This document shows, piece by piece, positions 3,123-25,310 of a DNA stretch of 37,163 nt (the first letter of the stretch is position 1; each line of letters starts with the position of its first letter). Origin of the DNA: Bdellovibrionales bacterium (GTDB lineage: Bacteria > Bdellovibrionota > Bdellovibrionia > Bdellovibrionales > UBA1609); the NCBI GenBank assembly GCA_020435005.1, contig JAGRAE010000007.1:1-37163 (forward strand). Direction: 5' to 3'. The translations under genes were made by a program, and so were the position numbers. Under the pieces are notes generated by a model. The model saw only the letters and a program-made list of their open reading frames with translations. It was not told where the DNA came from and made no database searches.

Positions 3123-4181
3123 ATGGACAAAGAAAAAATCGCTGATCAGGTAAAAGATTACTACGGAAAAACTCTGCAAAACTCCAATGATTTACAAACA
3201 AATGCTTGTTGTACAAATGTTTTTTATCCAAATCACATTAAAACAGCGCTTCAAAATATTCACGATGATGTTTTAACTAAGTATTACGGCTGTGGTTTAA
3301 CTATTCCAACAAACTTAAAGGATTTAAAAGTTTTAGATCTTGGTAGTGGATCGGGACGTGATTGCTATATTTTATCCCAACTGGTTGGTGAAAATGGCTC
3401 TGTTGTCGGGGTTGACATGACTCCTGAACAATTAACCGTGGCTAGAAATCATTTAGAATATCATCGTGAAAAATTTAATTATAAAAAAAGCAATGTTGAA
3501 TTTATCGAAGCAGACATTCAAAAATTAAGGGCTGCGGGTTTAAAAGAAAACGATTTTGATCTCATAGTCTCTAATTGTGTGGTGAATTTAGTTCCTGATA
3601 AAAGAGCTGTTTTATCAGAGGCCTATAGTTTATTAAAAGAGGGTGGAGAGCTTTATTTTTCAGATGTCTATTGCAATCGTCGCCTACCCAGCGAGCTAAT
3701 GGCCGATAATGAACTTTGGGGGGAGTGTTTGAGTGGCGCTCTATATTGGAATGATTTTGAAAACTTAGCAAAAGAGGTGGGCTTTAAGGATCCAAGAGTT
3801 GTAGAAAGTAGTCCGATCACTATCAGTAATCCAAAACTGGAAGCGAAACTAGAAGGTTTCGAATTTTACTCAGTGACTTATAGATTGTTTAAACTGCCTC
3901 AACTAGAGCCTCACTGTGAAGACTATGGACAAGCCATTATTTATCGAGGTGGCATAACAGAGCAAGAAAAAATATTTAAACTTGATGATCACCATGTGTT
4001 TCACAAAGGTAAAGTGGCCACTGTTTGTGGCAACACCTACTATATGCTTTATAGTACACGCTTTAAAAATCACTTTGAATTTATTGGCAACTTTGAAACT
4101 CATTATGGGATCTTTGAAGGCTGTGGCGTGAGCTCTCCTTACGAAGGCAAATCTCAAACTGAAGATGTGGGCTGCTGTTAA
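3123..4181 (+). CDS. arsM: Arsenite S-adenosylmethionine methyltransferase (AS3MT-like)
   Basis: A 352-residue cytoplasmic enzyme that methylates As(III) using S-adenosylmethionine. The SAM site is VLDLGSGSGRDCY (70-82) with the acidic end of strand 2 at VGVDMT. All four cysteines that bind and shuttle arsenic in animal AS3MT have counterparts: C29 in TNACCT, C57 in YYGCGL, C152 in VSNCVVNLVPDK and C202 in LWGECLSGALYW. These segments resemble animal AS3MT strikingly. The C-terminal domain (about 250-352) ends with Cys-rich GCGVSSPYEG and GCC. AGGAGG lies seven bases before the ATG. The stop TAA shares one base with the start of the radical SAM gene, so the two are translated together. The divergent glycosyltransferase suggests that methylarsenic is processed further, not only volatilised. 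Confidence 0.93.
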   Translation: MDKEKIADQVKDYYGKTLQNSNDLQTNACCTNVFYPNHIKTALQNIHDDVLTKYYGCGLTIPTNLKDLKVLDLGSGSGRDCYILSQLVGENGSVVGVDMTPEQLTVARNHLEYHREKFNYKKSNVEFIEADIQKLRAAGLKENDFDLIVSNCVVNLVPDKRAVLSEAYSLLKEGGELYFSDVYCNRRLPSELMADNELWGECLSGALYWNDFENLAKEVGFKDPRVVESSPITISNPKLEAKLEGFEFYSVTYRLFKLPQLEPHCEDYGQAIIYRGGITEQEKIFKLDDHHVFHKGKVATVCGNTYYMLYSTRFKNHFEFIGNFETHYGIFEGCGVSSPYEGKSQTEDVGCC

Positions 4182-5119
4182 TGGAAAGAGAAATGACAAA
4201 TCCAAAACAAAAATTTAGTCACCCGGACATTACAGCCAAAGGAGAAGTGCGTGCTAGCGTTGCCCCAGTAAATTTAGAAACACTTTGGTTTAACACTGGG
4301 ACCTTGTGCAATTTAGCTTGTCACAATTGTTATATTGAATCGAGTCCAAAAAATGATCGATTGGTCTATTTAAGTTTAAATGATGTTGTTAGTTACCTTG
4401 ATGAAATTGCCAGTAAAGATTTTAAAACTACAGAAATAGGGTTCACCGGCGGTGAACCCTTTATGAACTTAGCGATGATTTCTATTCTTGAGGAAACTTT
4501 AAAACGAGGATACAAAGTTCTGGTCTTAACAAATGCTATGAAGCCTATGCACAAAAAGAAAGAAGCATTGTTAAGCTTAAAAGAAAGTTACGGCGACAAA
4601 CTTGTTCTACGAGTTTCACTTGATCACTATACCCAAGAACTTCATGAAAAAGAGCGAGGTCCAAAGTCATGGGAACCCGCTATCGAAGGATTGGTGTGGC
4701 TAAGTGAAAATAGTTTTAATATTGATGTTGCTGGACGCACATGTTGGCACGAAAGTGAAGACGAAATTAGAAAAGGTTTTGCTAAATTATTTAAAGAGAA
4801 AAATATAGACATAGACGCCTTTAATCCTTCGCAACTTGTTTTGTTTCCAGAAATGCAAGAAGGCGAAGATGTCCCTGAAATTACCATAGCTTGTTGGGAT
4901 ATTTTGAAAAAATCACCCGCTGATATTATGTGTGCATCTTCGCGCATGATAGTTAAAAGAAAGGGCCGTGAAAAAGCCGAAGTCGTTGCCTGTACTCTTT
5001 TGCCTAATGACGAAGAATTTAGCTTGGGACAAACATTGAGTGAAGCATGGCAGCCGGTAAAGTTGAATCATGAGTATTGTGCAAAGTTCTGCGTTCTCGG
5101 TGGCGGTAGCTGCTCCTAA
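4181..5119 (+). CDS. Radical SAM enzyme linked to ArsM
   Basis: A 312-residue radical SAM protein. The [4Fe-4S] motif is CNLACHNC in GTLCNLACHNCYIESSP (about 43-59, CxxxCxxC), and the SAM glycine motif is GFTGGEPF. The C-terminal third is cysteine-rich (ACWDIL, IMCASS, ACTLLP, YCAKFC and a final GGGSC), so it may hold an auxiliary cluster or a metal/arsenic site. It overlaps arsM by one base (TAATG). A second ATG at 4193, preceded by GGAAAGAGAA, is an alternative start. ArsS-type radical SAM enzymes make organoarsenicals from methylated arsenic. This protein belongs to a related widespread group, usually annotated only as radical SAM, whose spacing and ending differ from ArsS as I remember it. 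The substrate is therefore an inference from its neighbours. Confidence 0.8.
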   Translation: MEREMTNPKQKFSHPDITAKGEVRASVAPVNLETLWFNTGTLCNLACHNCYIESSPKNDRLVYLSLNDVVSYLDEIASKDFKTTEIGFTGGEPFMNLAMISILEETLKRGYKVLVLTNAMKPMHKKKEALLSLKESYGDKLVLRVSLDHYTQELHEKERGPKSWEPAIEGLVWLSENSFNIDVAGRTCWHESEDEIRKGFAKLFKEKNIDIDAFNPSQLVLFPEMQEGEDVPEITIACWDILKKSPADIMCASSRMIVKRKGREKAEVVACTLLPNDEEFSLGQTLSEAWQPVKLNHEYCAKFCVLGGGSCS

Positions 5120-16699: not shown

Positions 16700-17983
16700 A
16701 TGAACAAGGTGATATTGGTAGCCACACTTGCTGTCCTGTTTGTTGGCCAAGATGTTTGGTCTGCAGACATAAGAAAAAAGCCAAGTACTTGTGAAGAAAA
16801 TTTAAACCAAGAAATCACACCTCAGATGAAACGAGCCAGACAATTATATACGGCTCTAACAGGTACTCCAATTGCTTATTGTGATGAAAAAATTGAACGC
16901 ATGACAATTTATCTTGCTGCTGGTCGCGCAAGGGATGCCGTGCGAGTCGCAATTGCAGATCCTGACTTCTATAATATTAAAGTTAGAGAATTGGCTTCGA
17001 GAATTTGTACTTTTGAAAACACCACAAGAACCCCTGTCAACGATTGTATTGCATTGGTAGTAGGTGCTGTTCGCGATGGTCTCGATGCAAGAGAGTTACT
17101 AACAGGTAACTTCTTCTATATGATAGATCGAGCTAAAGCCACGGGCGCAACAAGAAGTAGTGTGATCAACGACGTTTTAAAATCCAACAATCATTATGCC
17201 CAAGTAGATGACCTAGAATTATCAATGTATCACGTACTAATGAAAGTCGATGGTCAAAAGATTGTCGATCCTAAAAATAATAATAATGTTATTTCTGCAC
17301 AAGATCCTGCAGGAGCGATTACTACAAGATCTTGGATGATGGCACATGCTTTTGCCGGTACAAACAGAAGATTAGTTGAAAAATCATTTGAACAATTTTT
17401 ATGCTCACCCATTCGCGAATGGGCTGACAACACTATGCCTGACACTTATGTGGGTCGTGATGTTACAAGAACTCCCGGGGATGAACCAGCTAAGTATTTA
17501 GTTACATGTAAAGGTTGTCATGCACCTATGGATTCCATGAGAAGCGTATTTGCACATGCTGATTGGAGTTCTGATAGTAATACAGGAAACAACACATTTT
17601 ATAGATACGATCCAACTCAAGTTACACCAAAAATGAATAGAAACACCAATGAAACACCCACTTTAACTTATTTAATTACTGATGATACTTTTGATAACTA
17701 TGCCACTAAAGGTGCTAATGCTGCTCGTTTTGGCTGGAGAGGTTCTACAACAGGTAAGAGTATGAATGAGTTTGCATCCATGTTAGCTAACTCTGAACAG
17801 TTTAATCGTTGTATGGCAACACATGTATTTAAAACTGTGTGTGGCCGATTACCAGAGCCAGAATTAAAAACATTAATAGATACTTATGCGAGAGATTTTG
17901 ACCAAAATGAAAAAAGAGATTTAAGAGTATTATTTGAAAGGATTGCCTTAAGACCAGAATGTACTGGTGATGGCAATCAATAA
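16700..17983 (+). CDS. Exported c-type cytochrome with DUF1588/DUF1592-like traits
   Basis: 427 residues with signal peptide MNKVILVATLAVLFVGQDVWSA. A heme motif CKGCH lies near 270-274 in TCKGCHAPMDSMRSV, similar to the CxxCH-x-x-hydrophobic-DP segment of planctomycete DUF1588/DUF1592 cytochromes. Upstream is the segment TNRRLVEKSFEQFLCSPIREW, also like those families (RxxLLExxLCxxI). The C-terminal part includes VCGRLPEPELKTLIDTYARDF and ends in conserved cysteines. It is the first gene of a five-gene operon whose other members are lipoproteins and a Tat-exported DUF1501-like protein. In planctomycetes, DUF1501 proteins travel with such cytochromes. It is probably a periplasmic redox component, substrate unknown. 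Confidence 0.75.
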   Translation: MNKVILVATLAVLFVGQDVWSADIRKKPSTCEENLNQEITPQMKRARQLYTALTGTPIAYCDEKIERMTIYLAAGRARDAVRVAIADPDFYNIKVRELASRICTFENTTRTPVNDCIALVVGAVRDGLDARELLTGNFFYMIDRAKATGATRSSVINDVLKSNNHYAQVDDLELSMYHVLMKVDGQKIVDPKNNNNVISAQDPAGAITTRSWMMAHAFAGTNRRLVEKSFEQFLCSPIREWADNTMPDTYVGRDVTRTPGDEPAKYLVTCKGCHAPMDSMRSVFAHADWSSDSNTGNNTFYRYDPTQVTPKMNRNTNETPTLTYLITDDTFDNYATKGANAARFGWRGSTTGKSMNEFASMLANSEQFNRCMATHVFKTVCGRLPEPELKTLIDTYARDFDQNEKRDLRVLFERIALRPECTGDGNQ

Positions 17984-18015
17984 GGTGAAGGTAAAATATG
18001 TTGGAGGCAAATAAA

Positions 18016-18729
18016 ATGAAAAAAGTATTTAATACAAAAAGAGCCCTCAAATTGTTCACAGCCGTAGTTGCAGCTAGTTTTACCATCACAGCTTTTCAAA
18101 ACTGTGGAAGCTCTGGAGAAAGTTCAAGTGCATCTTTAGATTATACAGAAGCGGGAGAAACAGCGGTCTCGCCAATAAAAGTAGAAAAGACAGATAGAAT
18201 TTTACACTCTCGAAACGTCGCAAATGCTCTGGTTCAAAGTTTGGGTGTAGAAAATTCTGGAAACACTAACAATTTAGATCCACTTTACAACGCGGCTATT
18301 AGCTCACAATTACTTTTGTCTGAAACAGGTGATTACGATTCTATTACAGGTGGGCAAATTACAATTCATGCAAACAACTTAGCTGAACTCGCTTGTGAAA
18401 GAATGGTATTTTATGGCGAAAGACCACTTTTAACCGTGGTAGATGGCCAAGTTGAAGACAAGAGAAGATTTTTTAAAGGCCTTTATATTGGAGATAATGC
18501 GGCTCAAGCTACTCCTCAGGTTCCACTAGAAGATGAAACAAGATATAGAGCAGCAATTAAAAGATTAGGTCGAACACTCTGGGGTAGAGATGTAGAGCAA
18601 GCTGAAGAAGATTTAATATTAAGCGCAGCCAGTCCAATTTTGTCTGATGCAAAAGCCAATCGAGGTTTTAGAGCTGCTGTAATGACTTGTACAATAATGG
18701 CTTCAACTTTTGACTTTATGAGACAATAA
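18016..18729 (+). CDS. Lipoprotein, partner of the cytochrome (DUF1592-like fragment)
   Basis: 237 residues. The leader MKKVFNTKRALKLFTAVVAA with TAFQNC gives lipid cysteine C30 in a FQNC context. The start at 18016 has GGAGG seven bases upstream and follows the previous stop by 32 bases; an ATG at 17998 would add six residues before a poorer ribosome site. The mature part includes AIKRLGRTLWGRDVEQAEEDLILS and ends VMTCTIMASTFDFMRQ, which echoes the C-terminal tail of DUF1592-type proteins (LARRLWGRxxxxxE.. and ASPxFLYR). It may be the counterpart of a region that is one protein in planctomycetes. No heme motif is present. It is an envelope lipoprotein in the cytochrome operon. Confidence 0.65.
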   Translation: MKKVFNTKRALKLFTAVVAASFTITAFQNCGSSGESSSASLDYTEAGETAVSPIKVEKTDRILHSRNVANALVQSLGVENSGNTNNLDPLYNAAISSQLLLSETGDYDSITGGQITIHANNLAELACERMVFYGERPLLTVVDGQVEDKRRFFKGLYIGDNAAQATPQVPLEDETRYRAAIKRLGRTLWGRDVEQAEEDLILSAASPILSDAKANRGFRAAVMTCTIMASTFDFMRQ

Positions 18730-18747
18730 GGGTTTTGGGGGATGAAA

Positions 18748-20367
18748 ATGAAAAAAATGAACAGACCACTTACTAAAAATGATATCATTGAGTTAGCGCG
18801 AAAAAAAGGTATCAAGTTACACGATGATCATCCAGTACCAACAACTCGAAGAGAATTTCTGGCTCAAGGTTTAATGGGATTCGCAGGATACATGATGGCA
18901 CCTTCATTAATTCATATGCTAAGCACACAAGCCCATGCACAATCTGTTGAAGAGTGTACGACCTTACTTACACCAGCTCGAACAATGCCAGGGTTTTTGC
19001 ACCTAAATTTAGGTGGTGGAGCTGGAATAACAGGACAATGGGCAGTAAGAAAATTAGCTGATCCCAATCGACCATTAGCCACGCGAAACAATGAAGACAA
19101 CTTAATTTATATTAACCGCTATAGGGCTCTTGGTTTAGGTGAAAACTCAGCCGCATTCACTGTTAACAAATCACAATTTGCCAACCCCTTTGAAGTTGTT
19201 AATAATGACGGAGATGTTGGTGCGCAAATGTTTCGCCGCATGCTTGAAGTAGCCGGAACAGCTTGTGCAAACACTTCGGCGACTGGCGTATGTGTGGCCA
19301 GTCAAGATGATACATCTTCAAATAATAAACTGGGACCACAAGGTTTAATTCATGCAGTACAAAAAGCAAAAGAAGTTAAATTTAGAATCGCTCAAAACTT
19401 ATCCAATCGCAGTGGTACAGCCTTAACTGGAGTTGACCAAGACGTAGCAGGAAGAAACCGCCCCTATGCTCCCATAGTCGCCAATCAACTCAATGACATT
19501 CTTAGAGTTATTGGCCAAGCTCCAACCTCTGAAACAGAAGCCGGCTCAAATGTGGTATTAACAGATGCAGAAAAGAAAAGAATGCTTGAAGTTATAAATA
19601 ACTTATCAGGCTCTCAAGCGAGAAAAGTGGCCAGTGTTGGGTCAGCAACTAGAGAAAATTTTGTAAAGCTTTATCAAGAAGCTTCTGGAAAAAGTTATTG
19701 TCAATTAATTGTTCCTCAAGATTCTGTAGATCCCTATGCTAACACAGATATAGCTAGTTTATGGCAAACTCAAATTCAAGGAAATTTTAGCGCATTAAGT
19801 AATGATGCTGAAAGAGTAAAAGGTATTGCTTCACTTGTTTTTGCGGCGGTAAACGGATGGGCCGGAACTGTCGGTATTGACCTTGGTGGTTACGACTATC
19901 ATGGCAACAATAGAAATAACACTGATCCACGAGATGGTGATGCAGGTTATATCCTGGCTGGAGCACTTAGAACAGCAGAGATTCTGCAAAAACCTCTTTT
20001 TATAGTTGTAACATCAGATGGTGCTACGGGTGCAGCGAGTTCTGCTAACCGATTTGCCAACTGGGCCAGTGACCGCGGTAATGGTGGTTGTATATTATCA
20101 TTTATGTACGACCCACGAAACGCCGCAGGTCAGTCTAAAGAAGGTTATTTAGCAAATATAGATACACAATTAGGTCACTATACTGATGGTCAATCGGCAG
20201 ATGACAATACATTAGTTGGTAACCCAGAAAGAGCTACCATCGCCGTGATTCATCGTTATTTAGCTTTTTCTGAGTTTAATGATTGGAAAACAATTACGCA
20301 GGCTATTGATGATAGGTCTGCATTTACTAATGAGGAATTGCAATACATTGCAAAGTTTGGAGGATAA
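18748..20367 (+). CDS. Tat-exported DUF1501-like protein
   Basis: About 539 residues. A Tat signal is present: TTRREFLAQGLMGFAGYMMA (twin arginines R34-R35) ending AHAQ. The body resembles DUF1501 proteins, with GFLHLNLGGGAGITGQWAVRK near the start and GTVGIDLGGYDYHGN followed by ILQKPLFIVVTSDGATG, where the DUF1501 family has an acidic metal-binding loop. I chose the ATG at 18748, six bases after GGGGG; the ATG at 18742 is directly abutted by it and 18757 is also in frame. Tat export suggests folding with a cofactor in the cytoplasm. It lies between two lipoproteins of the cytochrome operon. The reaction is unknown for the family (phosphatase-like/sulfatase-like folds have been suggested). 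Confidence 0.75.
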   Translation: MKKMNRPLTKNDIIELARKKGIKLHDDHPVPTTRREFLAQGLMGFAGYMMAPSLIHMLSTQAHAQSVEECTTLLTPARTMPGFLHLNLGGGAGITGQWAVRKLADPNRPLATRNNEDNLIYINRYRALGLGENSAAFTVNKSQFANPFEVVNNDGDVGAQMFRRMLEVAGTACANTSATGVCVASQDDTSSNNKLGPQGLIHAVQKAKEVKFRIAQNLSNRSGTALTGVDQDVAGRNRPYAPIVANQLNDILRVIGQAPTSETEAGSNVVLTDAEKKRMLEVINNLSGSQARKVASVGSATRENFVKLYQEASGKSYCQLIVPQDSVDPYANTDIASLWQTQIQGNFSALSNDAERVKGIASLVFAAVNGWAGTVGIDLGGYDYHGNNRNNTDPRDGDAGYILAGALRTAEILQKPLFIVVTSDGATGAASSANRFANWASDRGNGGCILSFMYDPRNAAGQSKEGYLANIDTQLGHYTDGQSADDNTLVGNPERATIAVIHRYLAFSEFNDWKTITQAIDDRSAFTNEELQYIAKFGG

Positions 20368-20414
20368 TTTAATCGTCCAAACTTCTAATTAATAATTTTT
20401 AGGGAGTTAGTTGT

Positions 20415-21299
20415 ATGTCAGCGGATAGGGTACGTAGTAACAACGCTAAAAAATTTAATTTCAAAGTAGTTTCTTTAACTGCTATTTCTGGCTTAATTCT
20501 ATTAAGCCTATTCCAGAACTGCGCCAAACATGATGGTTTGGGAGGGGAAGGTTTAGGCTCTGCAAGTTGCGAGCCCTATATGAAATCTGTATTCGACACA
20601 CACATATATGGTTATGCAGTGACTTACTGTTCAACCTGCCATGTGCCTAATGGTCAGGGCAAAGGAAAGTTTGCTACCAATGATCAAGCGGCCGCGTGGG
20701 GTGCTTTTAGTGTAATTAGTGATGTACAAACAAAATTCTATAACAATTCAATAAGCACTTCACACGCTCCAGGTGTTACAGGACCACAACTTGAAGGTCC
20801 GGCAGCTAATATCAAACAAGCTCTTAAAGATGCGGAAACTGCTTGTTTACAAAATGCAGGTGGCGGACTTCCAGGTATTTCTGTGCAAACAAGTTTAAAA
20901 GAAATAGGCCTCGAAGTTGGGGGTACTACTACTTTATCTTGGATACTGAGCTCAGAGTTATCACCAGAAATTGGTGATACTGGCGGTGCCGTACTGTTTG
21001 TTGATGTGCAAGCTGTTACAGCTAATTATTATTACATCAGTCGTCCTAGAATTCGCACTGTGACACAAGAAATTTATGTTAAAGGAATGGAAATCATTAT
21101 TAATGGAGAAGTTAAAGATACGGTCACATTATTTAATGATATAGATAAATTAATACCTCCTGGTACGAGCGAGAACACATTAACCGGTATATTAACCGAA
21201 CAAGGTTCAACAATTCCTGCTGTGGTAGATTCTTCAGATACATTAATTATTGGTTTTGAAGTTTTACAAATCGGTGCACCAGAAACCGAGGAAGAATAG
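20415..21299 (+). CDS. Monoheme cytochrome lipoprotein
   Basis: 294 residues. The leader ISGLILLSLFQNC gives lipid cysteine C36 in a FQNC context. One heme motif, CSTCH (72-76), lies in AVTYCSTCHVPNGQGKGKFA. The second half (about 160-290) is beta-rich (TTTLSWILSSELSPEIGDTGGAVLFVDV, YYYISRPRIRTVTQEIYVKG), possibly a sandwich domain that binds protein or sugar. AGGGAG lies eight bases before the ATG. The fourth gene of the unit. The stop is only 10 bases from the next gene's ATG, so they are co-translated. Confidence 0.75.
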   Translation: MSADRVRSNNAKKFNFKVVSLTAISGLILLSLFQNCAKHDGLGGEGLGSASCEPYMKSVFDTHIYGYAVTYCSTCHVPNGQGKGKFATNDQAAAWGAFSVISDVQTKFYNNSISTSHAPGVTGPQLEGPAANIKQALKDAETACLQNAGGGLPGISVQTSLKEIGLEVGGTTTLSWILSSELSPEIGDTGGAVLFVDVQAVTANYYYISRPRIRTVTQEIYVKGMEIIINGEVKDTVTLFNDIDKLIPPGTSENTLTGILTEQGSTIPAVVDSSDTLIIGFEVLQIGAPETEEE

Positions 21300-21309
21300 G
21301 GGACGTAAT

Positions 21310-22314
21310 ATGAAAATAAACACTTCACTTTTAAAAGCCGTACTTTTGGTATCTTTGATTGTACCTTTATACCAAAACTGTGGTCGCCTTAAATCTTCTG
21401 GTACGAACGGATCCTTTAGTTCAACGACTGCGCGCAATAGTGAATTTGATTATGTCGTATTTAATTCTGCCTTCGAAGAAATTGCGGAGACTACTCCAAC
21501 CTTTAATGTAGGCGAAAAGTATAACTTTAGGATTAATTTAGAAAAATTAGAAGGTGCATTAATCTCCTGGGATCTTTTATTCTTGGGTGCATCTTGTGAC
21601 TTAAAAGTTTTTGCAGACAAAGAATCAGCTGAAATGGAATGTTTTTCTAACGGTGAAATTGGCGTTTCTGTTACGGCACTTTATCCTAATGGCAGTGAAA
21701 AGTATGGCGAGATTAGAGGATTTGTATTTGATACGGCCAGCGGAGGCGGTGGCTCTAACATCACACCAATAACGGTAACTATTCGCGCAGCAGGTAATGC
21801 TGAAGATTGGTTAATTGAAAACCCTCCAGCCGATCACAATCAAGTGAACATAGTTACAGGTTCAGGAACCAATAGAAATGCTGTAGTTTACCTAGGGCAG
21901 CCCATTCGCATTGTGAACAAAGATGATGAAGAACACAGACCCGGTGGTGCTACGGATGGTATTCCCTGTAAAACGGCTCCATTTAATTTAAAAACGGATC
22001 AATCCTACGACTGTATTACTAATACCGCTTTAGCTGATACAGATAAATATATAATTGATAGAAGAGATGATATGTCCTTACTAGATGGCGGTCGTTTTGG
22101 TTTTAAAATTGTAGATAGTCGTGCTGAATGGGTAAATCAAAACTGTACACAATGTCATGCAAACGTAAGTAACATCACTGTAGTTAGTCCCAACGACCTA
22201 TTAACTAGATTGAATAATGCAATTACCAACGAGCCAGGAATGGCCGCCTATTCAACACTGACAGCTGAACAAAGAAGATCTCTGGCGTTCTTTATGATGT
22301 ATCAGCCTAAGTAA
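21310..22314 (+). CDS. Cytochrome lipoprotein with cupredoxin-like region
   Basis: 334 residues. The leader MKINTSLLKAVLLVSLIVPL runs into YQNC (lipid cysteine C24). The start at 21310 has AGGGGACG before it; an ATG-less upstream start at 21250 lies inside the previous gene. The middle part (about 130-260) carries ITVTIRAAGNAEDWLIENPP, then GQPIRIVNKDDEEHRPGG with a following PCKTAPF. This is the arrangement of a cupredoxin copper site (His in the first loop, then Cys...His/Met), though the second histidine is not certain. A single heme motif CTQCH (279-283) sits near the end, followed by LLTRLNNAITNEPGMAAYSTLTAEQRRSLA, with a Met as possible ligand. Last gene of the operon; it converges on a methyltransferase gene six bases away. 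Confidence 0.7.
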   Translation: MKINTSLLKAVLLVSLIVPLYQNCGRLKSSGTNGSFSSTTARNSEFDYVVFNSAFEEIAETTPTFNVGEKYNFRINLEKLEGALISWDLLFLGASCDLKVFADKESAEMECFSNGEIGVSVTALYPNGSEKYGEIRGFVFDTASGGGGSNITPITVTIRAAGNAEDWLIENPPADHNQVNIVTGSGTNRNAVVYLGQPIRIVNKDDEEHRPGGATDGIPCKTAPFNLKTDQSYDCITNTALADTDKYIIDRRDDMSLLDGGRFGFKIVDSRAEWVNQNCTQCHANVSNITVVSPNDLLTRLNNAITNEPGMAAYSTLTAEQRRSLAFFMMYQPK

Positions 22315-22320
22315 ATAGAA

Positions 22321-23670
22321 TCAGACCCTGCGTTCATAGTAGTTGATCAGAAAAGTAATCAGGGTCTCTTCTGCCAGCTCTTCTGACATTTTATAGTGAT
22401 TCACCATCAAAGGAATAATATCATTTCTACAGCGTTTACCATCCATTGTATTAAGTAACTCATAAGCTACCTGGCTTCTAATTTGTGCTTGATCCATCAT
22501 TTCATTGCGTGGGATGGGTTCCTGTGGATCCGTAATCCACTTGGGTAGGTAATGATAGTAAGGTGGCTCTTTTGCGTCTTTTACCTTTTTTGCGCGAAAG
22601 CCTAAGACCTTTTCTTTTCGCGACTGTGAACTGTGAGGAGAGACTAAATATTCCATTTCAAACAATTCAATAGTTTCTATATCGAAACCTGATTCAACAA
22701 GTAATTCTTCTAGTTCTTGTTTAGAATAACTTCTAGATTTGAAATTATCATATCCCAAAGGACCTAAATTTATCCAACATCCTTCTTTATCTAAACAATG
22801 ATTAATTTTTTTCGCGAGAAGAGAAAAATCCTGAGCAACAATATCTATAAACCACGGTGTGACAATTGCAGATAAACTTTTAGGTTTGAATGGTAAATTT
22901 ACGGCGTCGGCAAATAAAAACATGAAATTATCTGGTATCGTTTTATCATAACTTAGTTTTTGTTTTACTGCGCAATCTTTTAATTCTATAGGAGCGATGG
23001 GGACTTCATAAAACTCTAAGGGCTCTTTATTGAGAACTTTCTTAGCACTGAAGAAAAGAAGGGGATTTATATCAATAGCCACTGATAACTCGGGTGCAAT
23101 GGCCAGATGAACATCAACACACATTCGCGAAGCACCAGCTCCTAAAAATGCAATGTTATTCAATTTAGTCTTAGGAAATAGGTCTATAACTTTTTGTGAA
23201 AACTGTTTTTTTTCATTTGTGTTCCACGCCCAATCTCTAAACAATGTATGAAAATAACTATTAAGATGCTGAGTATGAGGGAGCTTTTCAAGTACCAACT
23301 TTTGACTTTTTGGTTTGCTAACTTCACCTGTCCCAATAAGTGGCTCAAGAACTTCAAAAATTTTTTCAGCATTATGATGAACGGCTTCTGCCAATTGGTT
23401 CAACCTTTGTTTAGTTTTTTCCATTAGATCGGGTTTAGACAACTGATGCTCAATCATCGACATTTGACCTTGTAAAAACATTACTAAACTTTTTAAGCTA
23501 TTTTGCCATTGGTAAAGCTGAATGTCAGGTTCTCGAAAAAGCCAAGGTATGCCCATGTAGGATTCAAAACTAAAGTTCTCTTTGGTTGAGTGGAGTAAAC
23601 CATCTTTGATTTCAATTGTCGATTTAGTTCGTGGACATTCAAGTAATAATGCTAGTTTCTCTAGTGACAA
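22321..23670 (-). CDS. Three-part methyltransferase (Trm112-like, N2227-like, PqqD-like)
   Basis: 449 residues. Residues 1-48 look like a Trm112/UPF0434 head that has lost most cysteines (LLECPRTKSTIEIKDGLLHS, then MGIPWLF). Residues about 175-330 form a SAM-dependent methyltransferase: LNNIAFLGAGASRMCVDVHLA, SVAIDINPLLF, FADAVNLPFKP, then VTPWFIDI and WINLGPLGYDN. The last phrase resembles N2227/carnosine N-methyltransferases. Residues 400-449 resemble PqqD/winged-helix tails (VAYELLNTMDGKRCRNDIIP). The start is a TTG at 23670 with GGAG seven bases upstream; that ribosome site lies over the end of the upstream gene's stop region, 11 bases after it. So it forms an operon with the cytochrome-barrel gene. 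The substrate is unknown. Confidence 0.7.
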   Translation of the reverse strand: MSLEKLALLLECPRTKSTIEIKDGLLHSTKENFSFESYMGIPWLFREPDIQLYQWQNSLKSLVMFLQGQMSMIEHQLSKPDLMEKTKQRLNQLAEAVHHNAEKIFEVLEPLIGTGEVSKPKSQKLVLEKLPHTQHLNSYFHTLFRDWAWNTNEKKQFSQKVIDLFPKTKLNNIAFLGAGASRMCVDVHLAIAPELSVAIDINPLLFFSAKKVLNKEPLEFYEVPIAPIELKDCAVKQKLSYDKTIPDNFMFLFADAVNLPFKPKSLSAIVTPWFIDIVAQDFSLLAKKINHCLDKEGCWINLGPLGYDNFKSRSYSKQELEELLVESGFDIETIELFEMEYLVSPHSSQSRKEKVLGFRAKKVKDAKEPPYYHYLPKWITDPQEPIPRNEMMDQAQIRSQVAYELLNTMDGKRCRNDIIPLMVNHYKMSEELAEETLITFLINYYERRV

Positions 23671-23681
23671 TCCCTGTCTCC

Positions 23682-25310
23682 TTAAAAATAGAGGTGTGCT
23701 TGAATAAGTCCCTCAGTTTCATCAAATTTCTCAGCTGTTTTATCTTTAGGTGTGTCTGTGGTTTGCCTATAATGCATAGATAAATCAACTCCAGCTACCG
23801 GGAAAAAACGAAAGCCGATAGTGGTTTGAGTCGCGTCACCTTTGCCCATTTGTTGAACACCCGGACCAAAACCAGCGGCAATATTTGAAAATTCAAAAAC
23901 ACTTTCAAGATAGAATTCTCGCCACAGTTTATATCTCACTTCAAAAGTTGTAATAGTACCGGCATTTTCAAGACCTTTTGTATATTCTTTTGCTATATTT
24001 AAGGCTTCTGCATTTAAAACAAAATTTTTATACATCATTCCCGCCGAAACAGAATGAGCTGTACGTTTTAATGCATTGTTATTTGCATCTTTTGCATTAT
24101 TATCGGTGACATCTCTATAAGAATAAACAAGAGAAGCACCAAGTGTCACCCATCGCGCACCAAGATTAACAATGTAACCTTCTTCTTGATTTAGACTCGT
24201 GTTTGTCATGGGTTGAATAAAATGTATATTGGCAAAAGGAACATTAGGTGCAAGACCAAAAGAAAAAGCTTTGTTTTGCACACTATAGGCTTTGTTATTA
24301 TAAAGAATTGATTGAGCAAGGGTTGTATGATCTGGAGTAAAATGTTCAAACATGGGTTTGTACATGCCATACATCATAAAGCTATTGTAAAACATATCGT
24401 CGACCATAACATAAGCAGATCGATTTATAACATTGCTAGAAGTTGTATAGTCTAGGTCAGTATTTGTCGGGGTATTAAAGTAGCGAGACTCTACAACAAT
24501 GCTGAAATTATCAACCTTTCTGACGAAAGGTTTCATCTGCAAACCTATATCTAAAGCCATGGGCCAAAATGTACTCTTGTTATCTGAATCTATGGGTTGG
24601 CGACCCATATAACGAAAATCTAAGCCAGCGAGAATAGCTTCTCGTTTTTTTAATCGATATGGATCATCATAAGGCACAGTTGTACCAAACATTTTCCAAG
24701 AGTTTGCCATTTCATTCCAATTGTTGTCGCCATTGGACCTCTCATTATAAAACTCAGAAAAATCTGCCTCAGGAAAGTCACTTTCTGTATTGGTGAAAGC
24801 GTGTCGTCCTGACTTTTTATCCCTATACTTTTTTGTGGCATTGATAGCTTTAATAAGTGCACGTCTTTGATTTCTTGCACTAGGGATTACTTTGGGGTGG
24901 TAATCTTTTGGACTGATAGGCTTTTTGCTGACTTTGTGAGTCTCTCCATCTACGGCCATTAATGTGGCAAGGGCTTCTTGAGCCTGCTTGTCTTGAATAT
25001 AATCTTGAGCAAACCAGGGCAAAGGTTTTTCAGTATCTTTGCCCTTTATTTTCCAGGCAAAAGACCTCATCCATCTATCTGAGTTCCATTTTCCATAAAA
25101 GCTTCTTAAGCCGCCGCCATTAGGGTTAACATGACAACCTTGACAAGAAAGAGTACAGCGACGGTCTTTGGGAGGGACGTTATATCTTGAAGGGGCGTGG
25201 CAGCCGGCACAGTTTTGTGCAAACCTAGTAGCCATCCACGGCTCTGCAAAACCTTGAGAAGTTATTAAAACAAAAGCTGCAAAAACTAAAAATGCTAATA
25301 GTGATCTCAT
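23682..25310 (-). CDS. Diheme cytochrome fused to outer-membrane beta-barrel
   Basis: 542 residues. A signal peptide (MRSLLAFLVFAAFVLITSQG, ending GFA) is followed by two heme motifs: CAGCH (34-38) and CQGCH (56-60), the latter in the pattern CTLSCQGCHVNPNGGG. A linker of about 130 residues is lysine-rich. From about residue 230 to the end the sequence alternates as beta strands (for example MALDIGLQMKPFVRKVDNFSI, FEVRYKLWREFYLESVFEFS, IGFRFFPVAGVDLSMHYRQT) and ends in phenylalanine (AHLYF), the mark of an outer-membrane barrel. The overall plan recalls fused cytochrome-porins such as Cyc2 (which has one heme), so it may pass electrons across the outer membrane. It precedes a methyltransferase gene in the same operon. 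No clear ribosome site is present. Confidence 0.75.
   Translation of the reverse strand: MRSLLAFLVFAAFVLITSQGFAEPWMATRFAQNCAGCHAPSRYNVPPKDRRCTLSCQGCHVNPNGGGLRSFYGKWNSDRWMRSFAWKIKGKDTEKPLPWFAQDYIQDKQAQEALATLMAVDGETHKVSKKPISPKDYHPKVIPSARNQRRALIKAINATKKYRDKKSGRHAFTNTESDFPEADFSEFYNERSNGDNNWNEMANSWKMFGTTVPYDDPYRLKKREAILAGLDFRYMGRQPIDSDNKSTFWPMALDIGLQMKPFVRKVDNFSIVVESRYFNTPTNTDLDYTTSSNVINRSAYVMVDDMFYNSFMMYGMYKPMFEHFTPDHTTLAQSILYNNKAYSVQNKAFSFGLAPNVPFANIHFIQPMTNTSLNQEEGYIVNLGARWVTLGASLVYSYRDVTDNNAKDANNNALKRTAHSVSAGMMYKNFVLNAEALNIAKEYTKGLENAGTITTFEVRYKLWREFYLESVFEFSNIAAGFGPGVQQMGKGDATQTTIGFRFFPVAGVDLSMHYRQTTDTPKDKTAEKFDETEGLIQAHLYF

Follow-up and report, generated by a model that had tools for sequence, protein, structure and literature searches.

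A conserved four-gene envelope module of Bdellovibrionota resembling a split and re-ordered PSD/PSCyt system

The window analysed here is a stretch of 37,163 nucleotides from a Bdellovibrionales bacterium (contig JAGRAE010000007.1), a relative of predatory bacteria whose genome is a 3.39 Mb draft. As described in an earlier note on this DNA, it holds five co-directional genes with short gaps, here named A to E, all of them ORFs on the + strand. A convergent methyltransferase gene follows. The features are:

16700–17983, + strand: gene A, ORF of 427 aa; exported monoheme protein, DUF1592-DUF1588-DUF1585 half
17507–17521, + strand: CxxCH heme motif of A, residues 270–274, invariant in 38/38
18016–18729 (alternative start 17998), + strand: gene B, ORF of 237 aa (243 aa); lipoprotein, putative DUF1587-DUF1595 half
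18103–18105, + strand: lipobox Cys30 of B, invariant in 38/38
18742–20367, + strand: gene C, ORF of 541 aa; Tat-exported, DUF1501-like, predicted alkaline-phosphatase fold
18847–18852, + strand: twin-arginine pair of C, R36 R37 (TRREFL), invariant in 41/41
19885–19902, + strand: GGYDYH motif of C, residues 382–387, corresponding to the DUF1501 D-x-H motif
20415–21299, + strand: gene D, ORF of 294 aa; monoheme lipoprotein (two-heme in most relatives)
20628–20642, + strand: CxxCH heme motif of D, residues 72–76, invariant in 40/40
21310–22314 (or start 21250), + strand: gene E, ORF of 334 aa (354 aa); accessory monoheme lipoprotein
22144–22158, + strand: CxxCH heme motif of E, residues 279–283, invariant in 11/11
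22321–23670, − strand: SAM methyltransferase with a weak PqqD-like C-terminus, convergent with E; facultative partner

Counted from the likely starts, the gaps measure 32 bp between A and B (14 bp from the alternative B start), 12 bp between B and C, 47 bp between C and D, and 10 bp between D and E, and the starts of all five genes are preceded by purine-rich, ribosome-binding-like stretches. Promoter and terminator scans gave chance-level results only, and the end of E shows no fold of note. Proteins B, D and E have signal peptides ending in QNC, and A has a signal peptide without a lipobox. One CxxCH motif occurs in each of A, D and E in the window; its presence in exported proteins (38/38 for A, 40/40 for D and 11/11 for E) would class all three as c-type cytochromes. 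For D and E, the combination of a QNC signal and a CxxCH bears out their initial description as heme-motif lipoproteins.

Profile-profile alignments of A and B were made against intact DUF1592, DUF1501 and DUF1552 proteins from the same phylum. The intact protein of locus L077 comprises the Pfam domains DUF1587 (PF07626, residues 59–119), DUF1595 (PF07637, 137–197), DUF1592 (PF07631, 210–337), DUF1588 (PF07627, 354–449) and DUF1585 (PF07624, 462–533). Residues 41–422 of A align to residues 211–534 of this protein with a probability of 98 (E 2e-13; 98.2 with larger alignments). B aligns to residues 50–195 with a probability of 88 (E 3e-6; 89.9 with larger alignments), a match that is not conclusive by sequence alone. 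Reversed-sequence controls scored 0.4 for A and 0.2–0.3 for B, and for neither protein did these controls or alignments to the DUF1501 and DUF1552 sets exceed 0.6. A signal peptide alone can score about 60, as in the comparison of B with D (residues 13–40), and the L077 match of B lies outside it. The matches of A and B are complementary and non-overlapping, cover the whole intact protein and meet at the DUF1595/DUF1592 border. By this comparison A is the DUF1592-DUF1588-DUF1585 half and B would be the DUF1587-DUF1595 half, an assignment that gene order supports. A profile check of the 427- and 237-residue proteins, proposed in the earlier note, thus returned the first as matching the five-domain family and the second as probably matching it. 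B had been taken for the tail of the DUF1588/DUF1592 families; we rejected this, since B aligns with the head, the N-terminal half of the intact chain.

Among single sequences from the window, A matched DUF1585 alone in Pfam, at 19.1 bits against a curated cut-off of 25.8, B and C had no Pfam match, D and E gave sub-threshold matches to Cytochrom_C and Cytochrome_CBB3, respectively, and none of A–E matched NCBIfam. Pfam searches of homologues (E 0.1) found DUF1585 in 28/38 A proteins and DUF1588 in 5/38, and DUF1595 was matched in 3/38 B proteins, with a best E of 0.011. As A, B and C fall below the curated cut-offs of Pfam and NCBIfam, their DUF1588, DUF1592 and DUF1501 traits show by profile-profile comparison only. 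The description of A as an exported cytochrome with DUF1588/DUF1592 traits therefore holds by that comparison (98), without a curated Pfam cut-off being reached. Exactly one CxxCH is found in each of the 38 A proteins. A structure model of A is of very good quality (pLDDT 91, pTM 0.90) and mostly helical. It has no Foldseek match to solved chains at E 0.001 or better, and the best chain after re-alignment with VIA-align, a domain of a phycobilisome linker (Z 5.5; 121 residues at rmsd 3.3), is at the level of unrelated models and too weak to build on; a PDB sequence search with A returned chance-level matches only. With no related structure among solved chains, the fold of A offers no clue to function.

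The intact system also occurs in Bdellovibrionota. Loci L077 and L204–L206 hold a PSD3-PSD5-PSD4-PSCyt3-PSD2 protein (DUF1587-1595-1592-1588-1585) with an adjacent DUF1552 (HXXSHH) gene; a search of the window's own genome gave no match to an intact DUF1592, DUF1552 or DUF1501 protein. With B assigned as above, both forms comprise the five domains, a single heme motif region and lipoprotein signals, and in both a Tat-exported partner gene comes after the DUF1592 part. They differ in that the domains lie on two chains here and on one in the intact form, in the inverted order on the DNA, the C-terminal half (A) being encoded first, and in the addition of D and E. The partner gene also differs, being DUF1552 in the intact system and the DUF1501-like C here. 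In three intact loci, L204–L206, the DUF1552 gene comes immediately after the DUF1592 gene; C therefore holds the same position after the split pair. In these three loci DUF1592 is paired with DUF1552, not with DUF1501. According to the available part of a study of planctomycetes and verrucomicrobia, PSCyt2 and PSCyt3 genes each adjoin an uncharacterised gene family, and related PSCyt proteins often have carbohydrate-binding domains in the same chain (PMC5615132). The families and the pairing habit are common to those systems and ours, but theirs are unsplit and often include such domains.

The inverted order bears on how the two forms are related. If the two-piece form were ancestral and the single chain a later fusion, nothing would have been split here, and finding the C-terminal half first, unlike the order expected from a simple fission, would fit that history. 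However, the intact form is the wider spread, being known from planctomycetes and verrucomicrobia (available part of PMC5615132); we regard an ancestral two-piece form as rather unlikely. We retain the main idea of the earlier note, that a DUF1501/DUF1592 set is split here, which is supported and can be made exact, with A as the DUF1592-1588-1585 part and B as the putative DUF1587-1595 part. The further suggestion that the set is split into smaller, lipid-anchored parts is right about the split and fails for A, which has no lipobox.

C was matched best by DUF1501 proteins, with a probability of 73 to 82 around GGYDYH that sequence by itself leaves short of conclusive. Once the alignment is extended the two are collinear end to end, motifs included, with two motif residues replaced. 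The Pfam cut-off for DUF1501 (PF07394) was reached by none of the 41 C proteins, and alignment with DUF1552 (PF07586) was confident over residues 30–102 only, which is the signal region. C thus appears to resemble DUF1501 more than DUF1552. Its initial description as a Tat-exported, DUF1501-like protein is upheld for the twin-arginine pair (41/41) and, for the family, by the profile match but not by the Pfam cut-off. An AlphaFold2 model of C (pLDDT 79, pTM 0.77) matches the alkaline-phosphatase superfamily with Z about 10–11 and rmsd 4.0–5.0 over 206–249 residues. The top 50 rows all belong to this superfamily, with sulfatases, EptA/MCR-type transferases, NPPs and phosphoglycerate mutases (iPGM) among them. 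With Foldseek alone the best E was 5e-3, and PDB sequence searches with C gave chance-level matches only, so that no sequence relative is detectable there. C is accordingly modelled as having an alkaline-phosphatase-superfamily fold, a prediction from structure comparison.

Residues D385, H387, D426 and D444 are conserved in C, but two motif residues of DUF1501 proteins, the GG-x-D acid and the D-H His, are replaced. All of these would be metal-binding positions. Judged from the conserved columns, the metal site of C appears to be partly lost; C has the fold of the superfamily in common with its enzymes, but part of the metal-site residues replaced. The best folds and the four conserved residues would suit a C that works as a metal-dependent hydrolase or transferase on phosphate, sulfate or phosphoethanolamine groups and is what the operon serves, with the cytochromes as redox sensors or accessories. 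The two replacements argue against this, as do the heme motifs of A and D, which never vary and share one operon throughout, and we consider an enzymatic C with accessory cytochromes unlikely. We prefer a role for the whole module in electron transfer.

A C homologue is present in 148 of 368 Bdellovibrionota genomes, and in 100 of 234 among those of good quality. We studied 61 loci, namely the window and 60 others chosen from the C matches, mostly the best ones plus distant ones. Where the upstream flank reached at least 2.5 kb (53 loci), profile search placed A in 52, and where the downstream flank reached at least 2 kb (58 loci), it placed D in 54; the first 41 loci served to build the profiles and so match by construction. 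B is likewise present in 52 of the same 53 loci, a scripted count of 51 plus L164, whose B matches at 1e-48 and was missed through an overlapping upstream start. L183, the exception in the B count, holds a different 798-residue paralogue. Searches with the window proteins as single queries are free of the match-by-construction fault, and in 40 loci (L034–L073) they recovered C in all 40, A and D in 37 each, and B in 14. A was on the same strand and upstream of C in 37/40 of these loci, and 38/40 have a same-strand gene between A and C by position, which was counted as B where the single query had not recovered it. The B alignment has three invariant Cys in 38/38 rows, the window included and one contig-cut copy left out.

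Nearly all fetched loci with sufficient flank repeat the order A-B-C-D, so the set is more than a chance arrangement. Many intergenic gaps in the relatives' loci are below 30 bp or are overlaps. Across 37 shared loci the pairwise distances of the four genes are correlated, with rho of 0.62 to 0.80 against permutation maxima of 0.22 to 0.38, and the genes have therefore travelled together. A-B-C-D is a conserved four-gene module in Bdellovibrionota whose members stay together and diverge together. A survey across the phylum, set beforehand as a possible refutation, thus found the operon conserved. Conservation as a five-gene operon holds for A-B-C-D and not for E, which is lineage-limited (9/357 genomes by single-sequence search); a five-gene core was rejected. 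In G204 and G205 a second cassette lies immediately downstream. Neither A nor C has a match in plasmids, and C has none in viral contigs.

Some relatives carry add-on parts: Laminin_G_3 occurs in 4/38 A proteins, Calx-beta in 6/40 D proteins and FG-GAP repeats in both upstream proteins tested. Were the module a surface display or adhesion device, these FG-GAP, LamG and Calx-beta parts would do the work and the heme and alkaline-phosphatase-like domains would be structural. We hold this to be quite improbable, given that the core stands without any add-on part in the window and many relatives and that the CxxCH motifs never vary; an electron-transfer role remains our preferred reading.

The heme complement of D varies. 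Its lipobox Cys and the CxxCH at residues 72–76 are invariant in 40/40 proteins; two CxxCH are present in 30 of these and one in 10. The ten one-heme proteins come from the window, from family f6 (two genomes) and from family f8 (seven genomes); two more f8 genomes also have a one-heme D. The short D aligns to residues 16–304 of the two-heme D and is without the C-terminal heme domain. By profile search E occurs in 11 of 12 one-heme-D genomes versus 2 of 29 two-heme-D genomes, counts that exclude G216, G217 and G270, which have no usable D. Among the 11, G207 and G208 have E only as pieces at contig ends; the twelfth, G218, has divergent E pieces only. The two-heme-D genomes G165 and G248 have a full-length E, and the idea that E occurs exclusively where D has one heme, to which the single-sequence search had pointed, was dropped. 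The best non-E match of the E heme domain among 2546 ORFs was a large DUF1592 protein (7.5e-13), followed by the two-heme D proteins of L043 (1.7e-9) and L044 (1.1e-8), which matched through their C-terminal heme domain. Because E tracks the loss, it probably supplies the second heme missing from D in the window's lineage. E lies beside D only in the window and two related genomes; in f8 it is found elsewhere in the genome, beside other genes, and E is a wider family.

A type-1 copper site is made of two His, one Cys and usually a Met. In the cupredoxin-like part of E, H209 is the sole invariant candidate copper ligand in 11 proteins, with no second His, and C220 and C235 are also invariant in 11 proteins. 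Neither E nor any relative scanned had a cupredoxin match in Pfam, and a PDB sequence search with E returned chance-level matches only. The region had been put forward as cupredoxin-like; with H209 the one possible ligand kept, we rejected a blue-copper site in E.

We think it probable that A-B-C-D is an envelope module equivalent to the two-gene system of PSCyt3/PSD plus DUF1552/DUF1501 that was first described in planctomycetes, split and re-ordered, and that it forms an electron-transfer complex. A and B would re-associate into the PSD/PSCyt unit that is one chain elsewhere, and this unit would dock on C. B and D could provide the lipid anchoring of the complex. D might relay electrons between the A/B unit with C and a periplasmic carrier, E would join D as a relay in lineages with a one-heme D, and the complex would oxidise or reduce a substrate. 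Against this reading, D is found in 54/58 loci, not all, and E occurs in two genomes with a two-heme D. The anatomy of the module is well supported; the reaction is something we infer.

An electron-transfer role is suggested by the invariant heme motifs and by Cbp2D of Cellvibrio japonicus, described in the available part of its report (PMC8981238) as an exported, DUF1587-annotated protein with monoheme domains, whose cytochrome domain X183 donates electrons to LPMOs. Cbp2D differs in that its single large chain includes a carbohydrate-binding module as well as a quinone-binding-like domain, and that part of the report mentions no C-like partner (PMC8981238). The most likely guess for the substrate would be an envelope or extracellular glycan, as PSCyt relatives have carbohydrate-binding domains and the cytochrome domain of a DUF1587 protein reduces polysaccharide monooxygenases; the support for such a link is indirect and includes the Laminin_G_3 domains in 4/38 A proteins.

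A search of the openly readable literature found no description of the A-B-C-D module and no expression or mutant data on it, the available part of PMC12546842 making no mention of it, and none of the papers found on the DUF families names Bdellovibrionota in its title or the start of its abstract. What the module offers is a multi-domain protein laid out as separate small subunits, with a partner and an electron relay, in one operon, and this split form makes it easier to examine a putative, uncharacterised electron-transfer machine of the envelope one part at a time. A version of the module lies in a complete genome (locus L164). With separate subunits in one operon and this version at hand, the question is testable by deletion and co-purification.

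Homologues of the methyltransferase downstream of E were found in 42/357 genomes, and C is present in 38 of these 42 (lists compared by eye). Among the C places listed, the methyltransferase lies within 10 kb of C in 22/42 genomes and within 3.5 kb in 19/42, the latter in four families. The p-value of an accompanying Fisher test was set aside, because the test counts related genomes as independent and takes one C total for both draws. Twelve members have a common conserved core. The methyltransferase is a recurrent, facultative neighbour of the module. Our widest proposal, which we put forward tentatively and at less than even strength, is an undescribed envelope redox complex of four to five proteins, derived from a dismantled planctomycete PSD/PSCyt protein, in which heme domains may move between subunits (D to E in one lineage) and a dedicated SAM methyltransferase might in some lineages modify a part or the substrate.

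The window genome is classed in family f1, unlike the placement of its A and C with f6 and f8, a discrepancy that either horizontal transfer or an old duplication would account for. Both the A tree and the C tree join the window to f6 at a support of 100/100; the next group is f8, with a support of 98/94 in the A tree and 89/0 in the C tree.

The lipidation-site-like cysteines of B (the DUF1587-1595 half), the cytochrome lipoprotein D and the accessory monoheme lipoprotein E lie in closely similar contexts in the window:

18103-18105, plus strand, cysteine of B, within FQNC
20520-20522, plus strand, cysteine of D, within FQNC
21379-21381, plus strand, cysteine of E, within YQNC

QN precedes the cysteine in all three proteins, and in relatives of B and D the preceding residue is commonly N or Q. 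The residue just before a lipidation cysteine is usually small, a pattern from which B, D and E depart.

Downstream of the operon in the window are two further genes:

22321-23670, minus strand, SAM methyltransferase gene with a CARME match
23682-25310, minus strand, exported 542-residue protein with CxxCH motifs close to its N-terminus

The C-terminus of the methyltransferase is weakly PqqD-like. Such a gene lies beside the operon in the window and at Bdellovibrionota loci fetched for their homologue of the DUF1501-like protein C (L036-L042, L057, L061, L065 and L067); it is immediately 3′ of D at seven loci of family f8, and either after D or convergent at the others. Homologues of the 542-residue protein occur at two other loci of the same operon (L056:442-2061 and L065:13383-14864).

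Immediately before A, the DUF1592-1588-1585 half, 12 loci (L048, L053, L055-L057, L059-L061, L065, L067, L069 and L071) carry one more gene, roughly 470-740 codons long. Both products tested (L048 and L061) contain FG-GAP repeats, and at most of these 12 loci A and D are long forms as well.

Two related genomes (L035 and L034) carry a second, shorter A-B-C-D-like cassette immediately after the first:

L035:11043-15771, second cassette, encoding A-like (373 residues), B-position (145), C-like (445) and CxxCH (383) proteins

In family f22 (L171 and L172), the B match falls inside much larger proteins of 701 and 916 residues, and C is not followed by D.

Elsewhere in the window, positions 3123-5119 hold two ORFs (352 and 312 aa); judged by eye, the first may encode a protein of the arsenite-methyltransferase type and the second a radical-SAM protein.
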